Shown piece by piece: positions 29,541 through 51,838 of a stretch of 64,000 bases of DNA. The DNA is taken from NCBI GenBank assembly GCA_024698705.1, contig JAILQX010000046.1:62001-126000 (forward strand). The letters are read 5' to 3'. Source of the stretch: Lachnospiraceae bacterium (GTDB lineage Bacteria; Bacillota; Clostridia; Lachnospirales; Lachnospiraceae). The notes under the pieces are model-generated. The model was given only the letters and a program-made list of their open reading frames with translations, ran no database searches and had not been told where the DNA came from. The position numbers and the translations under genes were made by a program. The number at the start of each line of letters is the position of its first letter. The first letter of the stretch is position 1.

Positions 29541-29602
29541 TAGTAAGAGACAATTCTTTGTGATAGAATATATAAGTCAGTTGTTCATACATGAGGATAG
29601 AT

Positions 29603-31444
29603 ATGCAGAAAAACATGAAGATTTCATATGGCAAGCCGTATCCCATGGGTGCTACGGTCGTCGGGGAAGACACGGTGAATTTTGCCGTTGTAATGAGTAC
29701 CGACGAGACCTGTGGAGTCATAATCTATAACAGAAAAAAGAAAACAAGTGAAAAACTCTCATTTTGCTGTTCAAATAAAGTCGGTAACGTAAGATGCATG
29801 AAAGTGTCCGGTATCGATCTTATGAACTGTGAATATAATTTCTATATCGGCGATAAGATCATAAACGATCCTTATTCGAAGCAGGTCCTTGGCAATGACA
29901 GATGGGGAAAACTCCCGGACAGACTGCGTTCGGGATTTTATTCGGATAATTATGATTGGGAGGATGATGCTCATCCGCTGATACCTTTTAACAGATCTAT
30001 TTTTTACTGCCTGCATGTAAGAGGCTTTACGAGACATTCAAGCAGTAAAGTCCATTATCCGGGAACATTTGAAGGCATAGTCGAGAAGATCGATTATCTG
30101 AAGGAACTCGGTGTAACGGCGATAGAGATGATGCCAGCGTATAATTTCGTCGAATACGCCCCGAAGGAAGAACCGAAGGATGAATTCGCGATAGGGCCTT
30201 ACGAACCTGAAGAGATAAAGCTCAACTACTGGGGTTATAAGGACAGTTTTTATTTCGCGCCAAAGGGTTCATTTGCTGCAAAGGGTAAAAGAGCCGACAT
30301 TTCCTTCAAGGATATGGTAAAAGCGCTGCATAAGGCCGGTATAGAGGTCATAATGCAGTTTTATTTCCCGTCCAATATCAAACAGGGATATATATTTGAG
30401 GTCCTCAAGTTCTGGATGCAGGAATATCACGTTGACGGATTCCATCTCATGGGTGAGGTCCTGCTTTCGCTGCTCGGTACGGAGCCTATGCTGGCGAATA
30501 CGAAGATCATGTGCGATCATGTTCCAGTTGATGATATTTACGAGCGCGGGACAGTTCCGGATTATAAAAACCTTGCGCTTTGTAATGACAAATATATGTA
30601 CGACATGAGGCGTTTCATCAAGTCCGATGAGGGCATGATACCTGCAGTTCTCAATTATATGAAGCATGTACCGGCAAAGATCGGTGATGTGCATTTCTTC
30701 TCGCACGGCAATACCTTCACACTGATGGATACGGTCAGCTATGACAGAAAGCATAACGAGGATAACGGGGAAAATAACAGGGACGGTTCACCCTACAACG
30801 GTTCATGGAACTGCGGCTTTGAAGGACCTACAAATAAAAAATCCGTCAGGACCTTAAGGAACAAGCAGATAAGAAATGCCATAATCCTGAATATGCTGTC
30901 AAGATCCACACCGCTTATAGTAGCGGGAGATGAATTCGGAAGGAGCCAAAAGGGCAATAACAATCCCTATTGTCATGACAATGCCGTTACCTGGGTAAAC
31001 TGGAAGGATCTGGAAAAAAACAGGGATATATATGATTTCATGCGTTATATGATCGATATGAGAAAACGCTTTAGTATATTGCACGGACCGGAAAGCTTCA
31101 AGATGAACGATTATCTTGAATGCGGCTATCCGGATCTGTCATTTCACGGCGAAGAGCCGTGGGTTGTCGATGCGGATCCGTTAAGCAGACAGTTCGGAAT
31201 GCTTTATGACGGCAATTATGCCGGAGATGATGTATTTATATATGTTGCGGTCAACATGCACTGGTCTGCCCACGATTTTGCCATACCGGAGATACCGTCA
31301 AAGTACAGTTGGGAAATACTTGTAAATACCGACAAGAGCGGTTTTGTGACCATAAAAAAAGATGATATGTCAAGAATATCCGTTAAGGAGCGAAGCATTG
31401 TGATTATGCTCGGAAAGAAAAATGAACTTTTGGGGACATCTTAA
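29603..31444 (+). CDS. GlgX/isoamylase-like GH13 protein lacking catalytic residues (probable pseudoenzyme)
   Basis: About 613 residues from the ATG at 29603 (GAGGATAG upstream). The N-terminus is a CBM48-like domain (YPMGATVVGEDTVNFAVV), followed by a barrel with clear similarity to glycogen debranching GlgX: YHVDGFH, VSYDRKHNEDNGENNRDG, RNAIILNMLSRSTPLIVAGDEFGRSQKGNNNPYC. The active-site regions differ. Region I has EVIMQFYF where DVVxNH is expected. Region II has DGFHLMGE where DGFRFDLA carries the nucleophile Asp. Region III has IMCDHV where the acid Glu is expected. Region IV has SHGNTF where HDGF is expected. Hydrolysis is therefore unlikely; glucan binding or a structural role is inferred. 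The last 23 bases overlap the DUF5662 gene. Confidence 0.85.
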   Translation: MQKNMKISYGKPYPMGATVVGEDTVNFAVVMSTDETCGVIIYNRKKKTSEKLSFCCSNKVGNVRCMKVSGIDLMNCEYNFYIGDKIINDPYSKQVLGNDRWGKLPDRLRSGFYSDNYDWEDDAHPLIPFNRSIFYCLHVRGFTRHSSSKVHYPGTFEGIVEKIDYLKELGVTAIEMMPAYNFVEYAPKEEPKDEFAIGPYEPEEIKLNYWGYKDSFYFAPKGSFAAKGKRADISFKDMVKALHKAGIEVIMQFYFPSNIKQGYIFEVLKFWMQEYHVDGFHLMGEVLLSLLGTEPMLANTKIMCDHVPVDDIYERGTVPDYKNLALCNDKYMYDMRRFIKSDEGMIPAVLNYMKHVPAKIGDVHFFSHGNTFTLMDTVSYDRKHNEDNGENNRDGSPYNGSWNCGFEGPTNKKSVRTLRNKQIRNAIILNMLSRSTPLIVAGDEFGRSQKGNNNPYCHDNAVTWVNWKDLEKNRDIYDFMRYMIDMRKRFSILHGPESFKMNDYLECGYPDLSFHGEEPWVVDADPLSRQFGMLYDGNYAGDDVFIYVAVNMHWSAHDFAIPEIPSKYSWEILVNTDKSGFVTIKKDDMSRISVKERSIVIMLGKKNELLGTS

Positions 31445-45706: not shown

Positions 45707-46786
45707 GTGGCCAGAGTTTATAATTTTTCAGCAGGTCCCGCAACTATGCCTTTGCCTGTGCTTGAGGAAATTCAGGCAGAACTTCTTGATTACAAGGGAA
45801 GCGGTATGTGTGTTATGGAGATGTCACACAGATCGAAGGTATTTCAGCAGATAGTTGATGAAGCGGAAGCGGATATCCGCGAACTTATGGGTATTCCCGA
45901 CAATTACAAAGTATTGTTCATCCAGGGCGGTGCTACATTACAGTTCTCGATGATCCCCATGAACCTTTGTAAGAACGGAGTATTTGATTATATCGTAACC
46001 GGTGCCTGGTCGAAAAAGGCTGCTACAGAAGCAAAGAAGTTCGGAAAGGTCAATGTTATCGCATCAAGCGAAGACAGAAATTACAGTTATATTCCGGACT
46101 GCTCAGATCTTCCGATAGATGATGATGCCGATTATGTTTATATCTGTGAAAATGAGACTATCCACGGAACAACATATCGTGATCTTCCGAATACAAAGGG
46201 AAAGATCCTTGTGGCAGACCAGTCTTCAATGTTTTTGAGCAAGCCCTGCAACGTATCCGATTACGGTATCATTTACGGAGGCGTTCAGAAGAATATAGGA
46301 CCTGCAGGTCTTTCAATCGTTATCATACGTGAGGATCTTATCAGAGAGGATATCGATCCCAAAACACCCGTATATATGAGATATGATACTCATGCAAACA
46401 ACGGTTCAATGTACAACACACCAAACTGCTGGGCTATATATGTATGCGGTAAGGTATTTAAGTATCTCAAAAAGCTTGGCGGACTTGAAGCCATGAATGA
46501 GATCAACAAGAAAAAAGCAAAGGTTCTCTATGATTTCCTTGACAGCAGCAAGATGTTCAACGGTACTGTCGATAAGGAATTCCGTTCACTCATGAACGTT
46601 CCTTTCGTAACGGAAAGTGCAGAGAAAGATGCTGCAGTTGTTGCCGCAACAAAAGCTGCGGGATTTGATAATCTTAAGGGACACAAGAGCGTCGGAGGCT
46701 TAAGAGCATCCATCTACAATGCAATGCCTCAGGAGGGCGTTGAAGCACTCGTGGAATTTCTTAAGAAATATGAGGAGGAAAACTAA
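45707..46786 (+). CDS. serC: Phosphoserine aminotransferase
   Basis: 359 residues with a GTG start after AGGAGG. YNFSAGPATMP, MEMSHRSKVFQQI, FIQGGATLQFSMIPMNL, and the PLP-lysine region YGGVQKNIGPAG identify SerC. It makes phosphoserine from phosphohydroxypyruvate, the product of SerA encoded next. The serC stop and serA start overlap by one base. Confidence 0.97.
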   Translation: MARVYNFSAGPATMPLPVLEEIQAELLDYKGSGMCVMEMSHRSKVFQQIVDEAEADIRELMGIPDNYKVLFIQGGATLQFSMIPMNLCKNGVFDYIVTGAWSKKAATEAKKFGKVNVIASSEDRNYSYIPDCSDLPIDDDADYVYICENETIHGTTYRDLPNTKGKILVADQSSMFLSKPCNVSDYGIIYGGVQKNIGPAGLSIVIIREDLIREDIDPKTPVYMRYDTHANNGSMYNTPNCWAIYVCGKVFKYLKKLGGLEAMNEINKKKAKVLYDFLDSSKMFNGTVDKEFRSLMNVPFVTESAEKDAAVVAATKAAGFDNLKGHKSVGGLRASIYNAMPQEGVEALVEFLKKYEEEN

Positions 46787-47949
46787 TGTTCAAATATAAT
46801 TGCCTCAATCCGATCGCGTCGGTAGGATTGGATAATTTTGATAACAAATACGAAAAGACCGATGATGTCAATGAAGCAGACGGTATCCTTGTAAGATCTG
46901 CCGTAATGCATGATATGGAATTCTCGGACAAGCTTTACTGCATCGCAAGAGCAGGTGCCGGCGTAAACAATATCCCGCTTGACAGATGTGCCCAGAAGGG
47001 TATTGTCGTGTTCAATACACCCGGCGCAAATGCAAACGGTGTAAAGGAACTTGTTATAGCCGGTATGCTCATGGCCAGCCGTGATATCACGGGCGGTATC
47101 GAATGGGTTAAGGAAAATGCCGGCGATCCCGAGATCGGAAAGACTGCCGAGAAAGCAAAGAAAGCTTATGCAGGTACAGAGATCCAGGATAAGAAGCTCG
47201 GTATAATCGGTCTCGGCGCCATCGGTGTTAAGGTGGCCAATGCCGCAAAGAGTCTCGGAATGACAGTATACGGATACGATCCTTATCTTTCGGTTGATGC
47301 AGCATGGAACTTAAGCCGTGATGTAAAGCATGTACTCAATGTTGATGATATATATGCGGAATGTGATTATATCACGATCCATGTTCCGCTTCTTGATAGT
47401 ACCAAGGGCATGATCAACAAGGAAGCCATCTCAAAGATGAAGGACGGTGTTATCATTCTTAACTTTGCAAGAGACCTTCTTTGCAACGAAGCCGATGTTA
47501 TCGATGGAATAAAGAGCGGAAAGATCCGCAAGTACGTCTGTGACTTCCCGAATGCCACAACAGTAGGACAGGAAGGATGTATAATAATTCCTCACCTCGG
47601 AGCATCAACGGAAGAATCAGAAGATAACTGTGCAGTCATGGCCGTAAAGGAGATGAAAGATTACCTTGAGAACGGTAATATCATCAATTCCGTAAACTAT
47701 CCGAAGTGTGATATGGGTATCTGCACAAAGGCAGGAAGAATTGCCGTATTCCACAAGAATATCGCCAATATGATCGCAAGCTTCACATCTGTATTCGGTG
47801 AAGGCGGCATCAATATTTCCGATATGACCAACAAGTCAAAAGGCGAGATAGCTTATACGATGCTCGATATAGAGACACCGGCTACCGATGATATAGTTAA
47901 AAAACTTGAAGCCATCGATGGTGTTTACAGAGTAAGAGTTGTAAAATAA
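46786..47949 (+). CDS. serA: D-3-phosphoglycerate dehydrogenase
   Basis: 387 residues. NAD-binding LGIIGLGAIGVKVANAAKSLGM, catalytic Arg/Glu/His in ARAGAGVNNIPLD, LNFARDLLCNEADVID and HLGASTEESEDNCA, plus a short C-terminal ACT domain (about 315-387). It oxidises 3-phosphoglycerate in serine synthesis. No serB phosphatase is present nearby. A terminator follows. Confidence 0.97.
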   Translation: MFKYNCLNPIASVGLDNFDNKYEKTDDVNEADGILVRSAVMHDMEFSDKLYCIARAGAGVNNIPLDRCAQKGIVVFNTPGANANGVKELVIAGMLMASRDITGGIEWVKENAGDPEIGKTAEKAKKAYAGTEIQDKKLGIIGLGAIGVKVANAAKSLGMTVYGYDPYLSVDAAWNLSRDVKHVLNVDDIYAECDYITIHVPLLDSTKGMINKEAISKMKDGVIILNFARDLLCNEADVIDGIKSGKIRKYVCDFPNATTVGQEGCIIIPHLGASTEESEDNCAVMAVKEMKDYLENGNIINSVNYPKCDMGICTKAGRIAVFHKNIANMIASFTSVFGEGGINISDMTNKSKGEIAYTMLDIETPATDDIVKKLEAIDGVYRVRVVK

Positions 47950-48001: not shown

Positions 48002-48025
48002 TAGAACGTTAAGGAGATGATGATT

Positions 48026-48298
48026 ATGACAAACGAAGAAAAAGAATTTTTGAATACCATTCAGGATTATGCGGACAAAGTCATGCCTGATATCGATCCT
48101 CAGAAGGTGCAGATCTCGGAACAACTCCAGAAGTTAAGGCCGATCCTTCAGGAGATGGCCATGAAGCATAAGATGACCGTTGAGGATACGTTTATCAAAT
48201 ATATGGATCTGGCAACGGAAAGAGCGGTTGCTTACGAAAATAAAATGAATGCTGAATTTGAGGGTGCTTTTGCACAGCCCCAAAAACCTCAATATTAA
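48026..48298 (+). CDS. Small soluble helical protein, unknown
   Basis: About 90 residues; the third of three in-frame ATGs is chosen because AAGGAG ends at 48016. Predicted helical and soluble (EEKEFLNTIQDYADKVMPDID, then LQEMAMKHKMTVEDTF), with a Gln/Pro-rich C-terminus. I do not recognise a family. It lies between serCA and DUF1015 and is probably co-transcribed with DUF1015 (20-bp gap). Confidence 0.7.
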   Translation: MTNEEKEFLNTIQDYADKVMPDIDPQKVQISEQLQKLRPILQEMAMKHKMTVEDTFIKYMDLATERAVAYENKMNAEFEGAFAQPQKPQY

Positions 48299-48318: not shown

Positions 48319-49551
48319 ATGGCAGAAATCAAACCATTCAAGGCGTACAGACCCGCAAAGGGTCTTGAGGATAAGATCGCGGCACTCCCTTATGATGTTT
48401 ATAACAGAGAAGAAGCAAAGGAGGTCGTAAAAGCCAATCCGCTGAGTTTCCTCGGTATAGACAGAGCTGAGACTCAATTTGACGATTCCGTATCAACATA
48501 TGACGAAAGAGTTTATGCAAAAGCAGACAGCATGTTAAAGGAATGGATCGCGAAAGGCAGATTCATTCAGGACGATAAGGAATGCTTTTATCTGTATCAG
48601 GAAGAATGGAAAGGCAGAAAACAGACAGGTATAGTAGGCTGCGCATCAATTGACGATTATCAGAACAATATAATCAAAAAGCATGAGAACACACTTGTGG
48701 CAAAAGAACAGGACAGGTTTAACCATATAGATGTTACCGGCATGCAGACAGGTCCCATTTTCCTTTCATTTTGTTCAAATGGGGATATTGATGCATTTAT
48801 CTCAAAGATACTTGATCGTGAACCTGTATATGATTTCGGATCCGATGATGATGTATTTCACAGAGTCTGGGTTATAGATGACGATGAAGATATAGCCTTT
48901 TTAAAGGCCTCATTTGCACAAATGAATGCTATCTATATAGCGGACGGCCATCACAGATGCGCCAGTGCCGTTAAAGTCGGATTGAAAAGAAGAGAAGAAC
49001 GCGGTGATGAAGGCAGATGTGAGTCGGATTATTTTATGTCCGTTCTTTTCCCCGATAATCAGCTCGAGATAATGGATTACAACAGAGTGCTCAAAGATAA
49101 AGCCTCACTTACGGATGAAGAACTCCTAAAGGCTGTCGGTGAATATTGTGACATAGAAAAATGCAATGTGGCATACAAGCCGGTTAAAAAAGGTGAAATC
49201 GGAATGCTCATTGAGGATAAATGGTATAAGCTTACGTTCAAGAGCGAGTATCTGAGCGATGACGCCGTGGATTCTCTTGATGTGGCATTTTTGAGCAGAT
49301 ATATACTTGAAAAGATATGGGGGATAACTGATCCCAAGACTGACAGCCGCATTGATTTTGTCGGAGGCATAAGAGGCTTAAAGGAACTTGAAAAGAGATG
49401 CAGGGAGGATTGCAAGGTTGCATTTGCAATGTATCCCACAAGCATCCGTGAATTGTTTGCCGTAGCCGATGAAGGAAGGCTGATGCCGCCGAAATCCACG
49501 TGGTTTGAACCCAAATTAAGAAGTGGTCTGTTCTTACACGATATACATTGA
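48319..49551 (+). CDS. DUF1015 family protein
   Basis: 410 residues. N-terminal IKPFKAYRPAKGLEDKIAALPYDVYNREEAKEV and NPLSFLGIDRAE match DUF1015. A central YIADGHHRCASAVK motif (near 211-224) is the family's most conserved point. The motif resembles the GHHR loop of ParB/Srx-fold proteins, a fold that includes ATP- or ADP-dependent free serine kinases. Together with the position after serC-serA, this suggests a role in serine or phosphoserine metabolism. That is an inference; the family has no function I can state. Confidence 0.9.
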   Translation: MAEIKPFKAYRPAKGLEDKIAALPYDVYNREEAKEVVKANPLSFLGIDRAETQFDDSVSTYDERVYAKADSMLKEWIAKGRFIQDDKECFYLYQEEWKGRKQTGIVGCASIDDYQNNIIKKHENTLVAKEQDRFNHIDVTGMQTGPIFLSFCSNGDIDAFISKILDREPVYDFGSDDDVFHRVWVIDDDEDIAFLKASFAQMNAIYIADGHHRCASAVKVGLKRREERGDEGRCESDYFMSVLFPDNQLEIMDYNRVLKDKASLTDEELLKAVGEYCDIEKCNVAYKPVKKGEIGMLIEDKWYKLTFKSEYLSDDAVDSLDVAFLSRYILEKIWGITDPKTDSRIDFVGGIRGLKELEKRCREDCKVAFAMYPTSIRELFAVADEGRLMPPKSTWFEPKLRSGLFLHDIH

Positions 49552-49597: not shown

Positions 49598-51838
49598 ATG
49601 AAGGATAAGCTATATAAGATGATGAGCTGGCCCCAGATAGAGGCGATCGTATACGGAGAGGAAGGAAATCCCCAAACGATCCTCGGAAGACACAATATTT
49701 CCGCTTACACTTTATATCAGACGTTTATACCTACAGCTGAAAGCGTTGTGCTGCATATTGAAGGACAGAAAAAGACCTACAATATGGAAATGGCCGATGA
49801 AGCAGGATTCTTCGCGATAGCTATCGTGGGAAAAGAGCCGAGGGATTATACCTATGAGGTCGTATATAAGGACGGATCGATCAAGATGATCCATGATCCT
49901 TATATTTTTGATGTATCCCTTGATAAGGATCAGAGAAAAAACTGGAATAAGGGTACTTCATTTGATTCATACAGATTCATGGGAGCGCATGAGGCTGTCA
50001 TAGACGGTATAAGCGGTGTTGTTTTCAGAGTATGGGCACCCAATGCGATTCGTGTTTCTGTCATTGGCGATTTCAATGACTGGGACGGACATGCTCATCC
50101 GATGATGTTTGATGAAGAAACAGGGATATATTCACTCTTCATACCCGAGCTTAAAGCGGGAAACAGATATATGTATGAGGTCTGTGTTAAAGGCGGTGAG
50201 TGCAGTGTCAAGATGGATCCCTATGCGCGTTCTTTTGATGAAGGTGCCGAAGTCGGTATGATAACCGCATCCGATAATTATGAATGGAACGATAAGACTT
50301 ATCTGAAGAACAGAAAAGACATCGACATCAGTGACGCCGTTATCAATATATTCGAACTTGATAACAGCCTCTGGGAAACAGGCAATGAAGACATAACCGA
50401 TGCAAATGTGAACGAATTATGTGATTATGTGAATGATATAGGATACACTCATGTCCTTCTTAATGTAAGGACCGACAGGTTTTATTGCATCAATACCACA
50501 TTATACGAGAATTACAGCTTAAAGAAGATCATAGACAGCTTTCATTCGAAAGGCATAGGAGTCCTTTTGAGAATAAATCTGTGTTTCTTTGACCAGAGCG
50601 AAAACGGATTAAAGACATTTGACGGTACATATCTTTACGGTCATTTGGATGACAGGAAACGTTATAATGCTATGTTTGGCTATAATTTTAATTACGGTCG
50701 CGAGCAGGTCAGGGATTTCCTTATGAGCAACGTTATATACTGGTTTGATGAATTCCATATCGATGGAATCCATGTTGATGAGATAAGTACCGTGCTTTTC
50801 TTAAATTACGGTAAAAATGACAATGAAACGGCTTATAACATGTACGGCGGCATCGAGAACCTCGAAGCCATAGATTTCTTCAAATGCATGAACACCAATA
50901 TACATAAGCTTTACAAAGGCGTTCTCACAACGACAAAAGAAACAGGTATGTTTCCGAATGTTACAACAAGCGTTGCAAATAACGGACTTGGCTTTGATCT
51001 GATCTGGGATAACGGATTTGGCGATGATTACATGGATTTTCTCAGAAAGGGTGATACCGACATACATAAGCTCACTGACAGCATGGCTTATGCTTACAGC
51101 GAGAATTATATACTTACTATAAGCAAAGAAGATGTCATTTCGGCAAATGATTTCGATTATGAACGTGTTTCCGAGGGGGCAGGCTATTTTGATTACGTTG
51201 CCTATGAGGATAACATGAAGATGGCCGTAAAACGTGCGACACTCAGCTTTTTCTGTGCTCACCCCGGCAAAAAACTGATATATATCGGACAGGATGAAAA
51301 AAACCTTTCTTCAAGACTCAACGATCTTTATAAGACATTGCCCGCATTCCATGCACTTGACAGATATAAAGAAGGATTTGAATGGGTAAGATCAATAGAT
51401 AACGGTACGGGCGTGATCGCATTCATGCGTAAGAGCGAAGTATTCAGGGAATGTATACTCGTAGTCTGCAATTTCTCTCTCGAGGATTATAAGGATTATA
51501 AGCTCGGTATGCCTTATGAGGGTAAATACAAGGCAATCTTTAATTCCGAAGAAAAGAGTTACGGAGGTAATTTCAAACTTCCCGCAAAGATGATCGACAC
51601 CGTTGATGAAGAATATGACGGTAAGGAATGTACATTGACCATCCCTATACCGGCCATGAGTGTTTCTTATTATGCATATTCTCCTTATTCGGAAGATGAA
51701 TTCCTAAAAATAGCAGCAAGAAAAGCGGCCAAGATAAAGAAAGAACTCGAAAAAGAAGCCGAACGCAGAGCAAAAGAACTTGAAAAAGAGGCTCTAAGGA
51801 AAGCAAGGGAGTACAACAGTCTGACAAAAAGTTCATAA
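49598..51838 (+). CDS. GlgB-like GH13 protein lacking catalytic residues (probable pseudoenzyme)
   Basis: 746 residues with the layout of a glycogen branching enzyme: an N-terminal module, CBM48 (about 140-230, FRVWAPNAIRVSVIGDFNDWDG), then a GH13 barrel with FDGTYLYGHLDDRK, FNYGREQVRDFLMSN, YGGIENLEAIDF and HPGKKLIYIGQDE. The active site is altered. Region I has LLRINLCFF where DWVPAHF is expected. Region II has DGIHVDEI, keeping the nucleophile Asp but with His for Arg. Region III has TKETG where AEEST holds the acid Glu. Region IV has ISKEDV where LSHDEV is expected. The segment with WGYQ is missing. The C-terminal 45 residues form a highly charged helix absent from ordinary GlgB. Branching activity is unlikely. 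Confidence 0.87.
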   Translation: MKDKLYKMMSWPQIEAIVYGEEGNPQTILGRHNISAYTLYQTFIPTAESVVLHIEGQKKTYNMEMADEAGFFAIAIVGKEPRDYTYEVVYKDGSIKMIHDPYIFDVSLDKDQRKNWNKGTSFDSYRFMGAHEAVIDGISGVVFRVWAPNAIRVSVIGDFNDWDGHAHPMMFDEETGIYSLFIPELKAGNRYMYEVCVKGGECSVKMDPYARSFDEGAEVGMITASDNYEWNDKTYLKNRKDIDISDAVINIFELDNSLWETGNEDITDANVNELCDYVNDIGYTHVLLNVRTDRFYCINTTLYENYSLKKIIDSFHSKGIGVLLRINLCFFDQSENGLKTFDGTYLYGHLDDRKRYNAMFGYNFNYGREQVRDFLMSNVIYWFDEFHIDGIHVDEISTVLFLNYGKNDNETAYNMYGGIENLEAIDFFKCMNTNIHKLYKGVLTTTKETGMFPNVTTSVANNGLGFDLIWDNGFGDDYMDFLRKGDTDIHKLTDSMAYAYSENYILTISKEDVISANDFDYERVSEGAGYFDYVAYEDNMKMAVKRATLSFFCAHPGKKLIYIGQDEKNLSSRLNDLYKTLPAFHALDRYKEGFEWVRSIDNGTGVIAFMRKSEVFRECILVVCNFSLEDYKDYKLGMPYEGKYKAIFNSEEKSYGGNFKLPAKMIDTVDEEYDGKECTLTIPIPAMSVSYYAYSPYSEDEFLKIAARKAAKIKKELEKEAERRAKELEKEALRKAREYNSLTKSS

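Follow-up and report, generated by a model that had tools for sequence, protein, structure and literature searches.

A 64,000-nt stretch of Lachnospiraceae bacterium DNA (GenBank assembly GCA_024698705.1, contig JAILQX010000046.1, positions 62,001 to 126,000 of the forward strand; hereafter the window) was analyzed around a gene for a long, N1-bearing glycogen branching enzyme (GlgB) homologue that is predicted to have lost catalysis. The Lachnospiraceae are a gut and rumen family. The open reading frame (ORF) at 49598-51838 (+) comprises 746 residues with no internal stops, and its features, with the evidence for each, are as follows.

49598..51838 (+): predicted catalytically dead long GlgB, 746 aa (ORF, domains, catalytic residues, model)
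49628..49903 (+): GlgB_N domain (N1), residues 11-102, better conserved within the genus than any other part (Pfam, domain identities)
49982..50227 (+): CBM48, residues 129-210; W162 kept, aligning with E. coli W159 of surface glucan site IV (Pfam, alignment)
50243..51295 (+): GH13_9-type (beta/alpha)8 barrel, about residues 216-566, eight modelled strands, active site lost (PDB search, alignment, model)
50474..50485 (+): WGYQ segment missing, between residues ~294 and 295 (alignment)
50567..50590 (+): region I, LRINLCFF versus LDWVPAHF (D to R, H to F; alignment)
50762..50785 (+): region II, DGIHVDEI versus DGLRVDAV (R to H; nucleophile D kept here; alignment)
50927..50950 (+): region III, TTTKETGM versus TIAEESTA (general acid E to K; alignment)
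51116..51139 (+): region IV, TISKEDVI versus PLSHDEVV (H to K, D to E; alignment)
51383..51676 (+): Alpha-amylase C-terminal domain, residues 596-693; W596 kept, aligning with E. coli W628 of surface glucan site VI (Pfam, alignment)
51692..51832 (+): C-terminal charged helix, residues 699-745; similar tails on intact GlgBs (model, tail comparison)

The CBM48 and GlgB framework described in an earlier model-made note on this DNA (the original prediction) was recovered in the ORF by Pfam, NCBIfam and PDB matches. GlgB_N, CBM48 and Alpha-amylase_C scored above the Pfam cut-offs, and the barrel gave a sub-threshold GHL10 match only. The top NCBIfam matches were GlgB models (441/577, 441/741 and 397/464 bits, score/cut-off), with all ten NCBIfam models listed for the protein scoring below their curated cut-offs. 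Branching enzymes were returned by a PDB sequence search (top match 3k1d, E 4.2e-98) and by a fold search with an earlier, weak model (18 sequences, predicted local distance difference test (pLDDT) 66.6). An AlphaFold2 model built from 56 family sequences had a mean pLDDT of 88.1 and a predicted template modelling score (pTM) of 0.84, with eight barrel strands and a C-terminal helix at residues 699-745. Pfam, the PDB sequence search, the fold search and the model together gave the protein the GlgB domain order and barrel fold. The protein is not a GH13_11 member, with GlgB models scoring best and the GlgX model giving 26 bits.

In the alignment, E. coli GlgB D335, H340, R403, D405, E458, H525 and D526 correspond to R, F, H, D, K, K and E in the window protein. 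Six of the seven catalytic positions are altered and the catalytic triad is incomplete (D405 kept, E458 replaced by K and D526 by E). The changes named in the original prediction, at the region I Asp and His (R and F), the region III general acid (Glu to Lys) and the region IV His-Asp pair (Lys-Glu), were found as described, as was the absence of the WGYQ segment; the region II Arg, overlooked there, is also lost. The nucleophile Asp does persist in the window protein, yet in 16 full sequences of the window's group this position is Glu 11 times, Asp four times and Ser once, and the acid position is Lys in 13 and Arg in 3. The lost catalytic residues support the assignment of the protein as a genuine GlgB pseudoenzyme.

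The long protein was present in 19 of the 20 genomes of the genus (the window's own included). The exception was G004 (60% complete), and G017 carries the protein in pieces in which regions III and IV are also altered. Catalytic positions were altered in all 18 aligned genus copies, one of them cut by a contig end; gaps in alignment columns may partly be due to the alignment itself. Absence of the substitutions from close homologues had been named earlier as a sign of sequence error; all 17 named close homologues (L045-L061, 47-66% identical) carry altered catalytic positions. These are Lachnospiraceae bins, Candidatus Colinaster and a record named Lacrimispora saccharolytica An861. They are largely the same genomes as the genus set; named loci (L numbers) and genome samples (G numbers) overlap and are not independent sets, and the taxon labels of the loci are record titles. 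The An861 record (L061/G011) has a dead GlgB at 48% identity with the tail absent, and its species label looks doubtful. Five congener pairs of the pseudoenzyme gave nonsynonymous divergences (dN) of 0.021, 0.044, 0.057, 0.139 and 0.265. Ratios to synonymous divergence (dN/dS) were about 0.013, 0.030 and 0.056 in the first three pairs, rough values with dS above 1 in all, and the last two pairs (dN 0.139 and 0.265) were saturated at synonymous sites. These comparisons indicate that the long GlgB is kept across the clade under purifying selection despite its lost catalytic residues.

Dead long GlgBs were counted in a survey of one genome per genus (150 genomes, completeness at least 90%). At least 105 long GlgBs in at least 92 genomes were found among the matches listed, from which more divergent copies may be missing, and all were read, the window's own included. 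By the catalytic triad, 21 genomes carried a dead long GlgB, 67 carried only intact ones and four had gaps in triad columns; of these four, G053 and G086 have no nucleophile and were counted as dead, and G044 and G057 are fragments and were left out. Of the 90 genomes whose long GlgB could be classified (one per genus, among the matches listed), 23 thereby have a dead one; two of these 23, G026 and G095, also carry a second, intact long GlgB. Judged by these residues, GlgB loss recurs in other genera. The earlier suggestion to look for a separate active GlgB in the same genomes was borne out at the level of residues, both in the window genome, where the intact second GlgB is L033, short and on contig C49, and in relatives. 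All 28 genomes examined that have an altered long GlgB (22 of the 23 with dead copies, G051, in which only H525 is changed, and five named genomes) have a second GlgB with the seven residues intact; in G027 this second copy is partial. In the survey, 13 genomes, read by hand from the match listing, have a long GlgB alone, intact in every case (versus the rest, Fisher p = 0.034, relatedness ignored). As with plant ISA2, a dead paralogue stands beside an active-looking relative, intact by its residues, in one genome.

The number of losses was estimated from trees in which an intact outgroup allowed the changes to be read as losses. A mixture-model tree of 70 chosen rows (24 altered), made with motif columns removed, gave 8 changes, at least 7 of them forced by starred branches. 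Holding the 24 altered rows as one group cost 431 log-likelihood units in an approximately unbiased (AU) test (p = 4.8e-7), and a single origin was rejected. A tree of 67 rows made from N1, CBM48 and C-domain columns only gave 10 changes, at least 6 of them forced. The mixture-model tree covers 24 of 51 altered rows; L175, L179, L180, L212, L216, L229, L243 and L249 (among the longest) and L090 were left out, as were the duplicate L114 and 17 near relatives in the window's group and Butyrivibrio. Its label "changed", taken from the masked columns, denotes any of the seven positions and includes L191 (H525 only), and the FastTree result discussed below was known before the AU test was run. One loss looks recent: L123 has N in place of the nucleophile D, and its neighbour L116, to which it is 79% identical, is intact. 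The mixture-model tree and AU test also rejected the dead GlgBs as one separate paralogous clade. Catalysis appears to have been lost several separate times among orthologues, the exact number not being fixed.

Conservation within the dead protein is distributed differently from that in intact GlgBs. In the window's genus, identity was highest in N1 (0.71) and lowest of the four main domains in the barrel (0.52), a ratio of 1.37, whereas N1 fell below the barrel in each of five intact clades chosen from the tree (ratios 0.78-0.90). A passage of PMC6339891 states that N1 normally evolves faster than N2 (CBM48). Surface glucan sites of E. coli GlgB were taken from Table 1 of PMC10254366, and those common to intact long GlgBs were judged. 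In the window's group, the site VI Trp (E. coli W628, C-domain) is W in 16 of 16 sequences and the site IV Trp (E. coli W159, CBM48) is retained in 11, giving way to Y in 4 and to C in 1. Both are kept in 8/8 Butyrivibrio sequences and each in 21/23 other dead long GlgBs. W586 is lost throughout the window's group (16/16) and Butyrivibrio (8/8) and is W in 7/23 of the other dead proteins; Y300 is lost in 16/16 of the window's group.

The charged C-terminal helix of the original prediction is real (residues 699-745 in the model), but it is no addition peculiar to the pseudoenzyme. Past the C-domain, the window's group has a median tail of 36 residues, against 44 for intact long GlgBs, 54 for other dead ones and 121.5 for Butyrivibrio; the median Lys plus Arg fraction of the tails is 0.29-0.33 across these groups. 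Since intact long GlgBs have similar or longer Lys-rich tails, the tail is a family trait and was rejected as a mark of the pseudoenzyme. The C-termini of L095, L117 and L062 contain long charged, coiled-coil-like stretches, followed in L095 and L117 by Lys-rich repeats reminiscent of histone H1 tails.

A second GH13 pseudoenzyme is encoded in the window, 18 kb upstream of the long glgB.

29591..31444 (+): GlgX-like pseudoenzyme, 617 aa, nucleophile segment missing (model scores, alignment)

This protein scored 299 bits against the GlgX model (cut-off 641). The nucleophile segment is missing from all 46 GlgX-like proteins compared (the window's, 16 from congeners and 29 from other genera) and present in 7/7 intact GlgX references, which suggests one old loss. 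A match occurs in 18 of the 20 genomes of the genus (none in G002 or G011). Across the 150-genome survey the gene was found in at least 111 genera among the matches listed; the nucleophile segment was checked in 30 of these (the window's own included), and some of the other rows cover the C-terminal two thirds only. The 32 GlgX-like matches obtained from a sample of 196 genomes across the order all lay within the window's own family. From its sequence the gene looks like an old, family-wide pseudoenzyme. The original prediction was right that this genome encodes two GH13 glycogen pseudoenzymes. Both are conserved in relatives, and the pair is not peculiar to the genome, with the GlgX-like loss in 46/46 and GlgB losses in other genera. 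Where both genes were present (81 genomes), they lay on the same contig in 27 and on different contigs in 54; 26 of the 27 pairs were on the same strand, and the two genes were within 41 kb of each other in 20 of the 81 genomes. The genome also holds a separate GlgX that is intact by sequence, as had been proposed as a check, on contig C17 and over its cut-off. The same contig carries a glgD match over cut-off with a glgC-like gene beside it (named without a glgC model, and matching the glgD model below cut-off), and glgA is on contig C21. With glgD, the glgC-like gene, glgA, the intact short glgB and the intact glgX all in the genome, the cell need not rely on the dead proteins to make glycogen.

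The long glgB lies directly downstream of four genes.

45707..46786 (+): serC-like gene, conserved neighbour (ORF, locus comparison)
46786..47949 (+): serA-like gene, conserved neighbour (ORF, locus comparison)
48017-48298 (+): 93-aa gene without a Pfam match, between the serA-like and DUF1015 genes (ORF)
48319..49551 (+): DUF1015 gene, a conserved neighbour on the upstream side of long glgB, whether dead or intact (Pfam, locus comparison)

The names serC-like (45707..46786) and serA-like (46786..47949) are presumed assignments, made from the sequence. The window order (serC-like, serA-like, 93-aa gene, DUF1015, long glgB) recurs at dead and intact long GlgBs. Over 80 loci, many of which end at contig ends, the neighbours were DUF1015 at 60, serA-like at 46 and serC-like at 44. 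All seven catalytic residues are present at 52 of these loci and not at 28, namely 17 of the window's group, eight named Butyrivibrio, and L090, L114 and L123. The shared gene order indicates that the window protein is the positional orthologue of the long, N1-bearing GlgB. At L090 (8001-10457) the triad is intact and the region II Arg and region I His are exchanged, with intact relatives adjacent; this is possibly an early stage of inactivation. The window and its nearest relatives have the 93-aa gene on the + strand, and most other loci with this gene have it on the - strand, a small local flip. That DUF1015 steadily keeps its place next to the serC-like and serA-like genes points to a function in serine metabolism, and we assume a link of DUF1015 to serine kinases. 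A literature search on the term DUF1015 gave no match among the matches listed.

The reading that we favor, with a probability of roughly 0.58, is that the long GlgB is a maintained pseudoenzyme that would work as a glucan-binding scaffold or as a regulator of glycogen build-up. CBM48 and the C-terminal surface sites would hold the protein on glucan, and the docking of partners would fall to N1 and the C-terminal helix; the most plausible partners are the intact short GlgB, the nearby-encoded GlgX-like pseudoenzyme or both. Such contacts would influence the position and manner of chain branching or trimming. Binding, partner choice and the effect on glycogen are inferred by analogy with plant ISA2; a glycogen-organising role is plausible and fits the retained surface sites and the gene linkage. 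Several results weigh against this reading. Identity is lower for the dead protein than for the intact short GlgB (80% versus 91% between G019 and G014, 65% versus 88% between G008 and G013), from which the constraint on the dead protein is judged to be real but looser than that on the enzyme. The N1/barrel ratio is 1.02, about equal, in Butyrivibrio, and 5/16 sequences of the window's group have no site IV Trp. In the same group, 11/16 still have the donor-strand Trp (E. coli W336; I in the window protein), so that the cleft is not erased everywhere. Within the genus, conservation of the 32 active-site motif columns slightly exceeds that of the remaining barrel (ratio 1.10). G011, 99% complete (L027/L061), has neither the tail nor a GlgX-like protein, and neither is therefore strictly required. 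The linkage may partly be inherited gene order, with 54 of the 81 pairs on different contigs. FastTree (183 rows, 51 altered) needs only 5 changes and clusters 46 dead rows (82%, weak); FastTree warned of long branches joining, and the mixture-model tree and AU test split this cluster.

The motif ratio of 1.10 fits a re-used pocket, in which the old active site binds a small molecule or does other chemistry, so that the protein would act as a sensor or as a new enzyme. It is also favored by the genus-specific residues that occupy this site, with Lys (13 of 16) or Arg (3 of 16) in place of the general acid, and by the invariance of N327, T446 and E448 in the 18-row genus alignment. However, the residues found there differ in other dead clades, and the motif columns of those clades are less conserved than the remaining barrel (0.88), which makes one shared new chemistry improbable; the best-conserved part in the genus, moreover, is N1 and not the barrel. 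We regard a re-used pocket as unlikely. Somewhat less likely still is a role outside glycogen, in which the protein serves the serC-like/serA-like/DUF1015 neighbourhood or binds polyanions through its basic tail. The neighbour counts given above, alike for dead and intact copies, and the frequency of Lys-rich tails in the family are in its favor, but by sequence the intact copies in this neighbourhood are ordinary GlgBs, the dead forms mostly retain surface sites IV and VI, and one near-complete congener has no tail.

Decay of a redundant GlgB copy, without function and drifting to loss, is rated as very improbable. It would agree with the occurrence of dead copies only beside a second GlgB in the per-genus sample (23/23 versus 54/67 for intact copies; Fisher p = 0.034, relatedness ignored), with the long dead branches in the mixture-model tree and with the faster change of the dead protein relative to the short GlgB. 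Neutral decay was rejected on the ORFs retained across the genus at 47-66% identity, the low dN/dS, the numerous invariant residues in N1 and elsewhere, and the confident fold of the model. A sequencing or binning artefact has next to no chance of being the explanation: the majority of the sequences come from metagenome bins, but the same changes recur in many separate assemblies, on which ground sequencing error was rejected, and dead long GlgBs occur in records named as Butyrivibrio strains (L095, L097, L110, L117 and L121) and Lacrimispora saccharolytica An861 (L061).

The scaffold or regulator reading can be extended to a shadow glycogen apparatus of the Lachnospiraceae, composed of an ancient dead GlgX and a dual-purpose long GlgB from which catalysis can repeatedly be stripped. 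This non-catalytic complex would organise glycogen beside active GlgB and GlgX, as an independent counterpart of plant ISA1/ISA2. The extension is tentative, and we consider it doubtful as a whole.

Compared with bacterial GlgB of GH13_9 Type 1 (N1 plus CBM48; 3k1d, E. coli GlgB), the window protein has the same domains in the same order, and its group largely shares surface sites IV and VI; it differs in having neither the catalytic residues nor WGYQ, and in that N1 is more conserved than the barrel in the genus, the reverse of intact clades. Plant ISA2, as described in a portion of PMC12510319, is likewise a storage-glucan GH13 protein that has no catalytic residues, is selected beside an active relative and evolves faster, and its N-terminal beta-sandwich domain is a further likeness to the window protein. 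The authors of that portion propose polymer masking, enzyme recruitment or nucleation as ISA2 functions. ISA2 differs in being a debranching GH13_11 protein with one ancient loss; here the family is a branching one and several losses are inferred. The GlgX-like protein of the window is likewise a glycogen-enzyme pseudoenzyme of GH13, in the same genome and sometimes linked, with one old loss suggested (46/46) versus several in the long GlgB. An inactive bacterial GlgB domain has been reported in the GlgA-GlgB fusion of Criblamydiaceae and Waddliaceae, according to an excerpt of PMC11046441; there it is part of a fusion in a defective pathway, and here a stand-alone protein is selected beside an intact GlgB. 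GlgD, in a section of PMC10395257, is a non-catalytic regulatory subunit and partner of GlgC, and thus resembles the long GlgB as a regulatory member of the glycogen pathway, with an over-cut-off glgD match in the window genome; it is not a GH13 protein, and its role is reported where the present one is proposed. A stand-alone bacterial GlgB pseudoenzyme was not found in a literature search of titles and abstracts, with full text limited to open-licence papers, and a term search of parts of PMC4236520 and PMC6339891 did not return the word "inactive". GH13 pseudoenzymes are themselves already known; what is unusual here is the repeated catalytic loss among orthologues in one of them.

A protein that is kept while its orthologues repeatedly lose their chemistry is natural evidence for a second, structural job of a branching enzyme. 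If the scaffold or regulator reading is true, what shapes glycogen besides catalysis becomes testable in bacteria, the worked-out GH13 example being plant ISA2. The findings also call for caution in genome surveys that count glgB and glgX copies; the same section of PMC10395257, with no word on whether the copies are catalytic, credits Blautia obeum with three copies of glgB and two of glgX, and Dorea longicatena with two of glgB.

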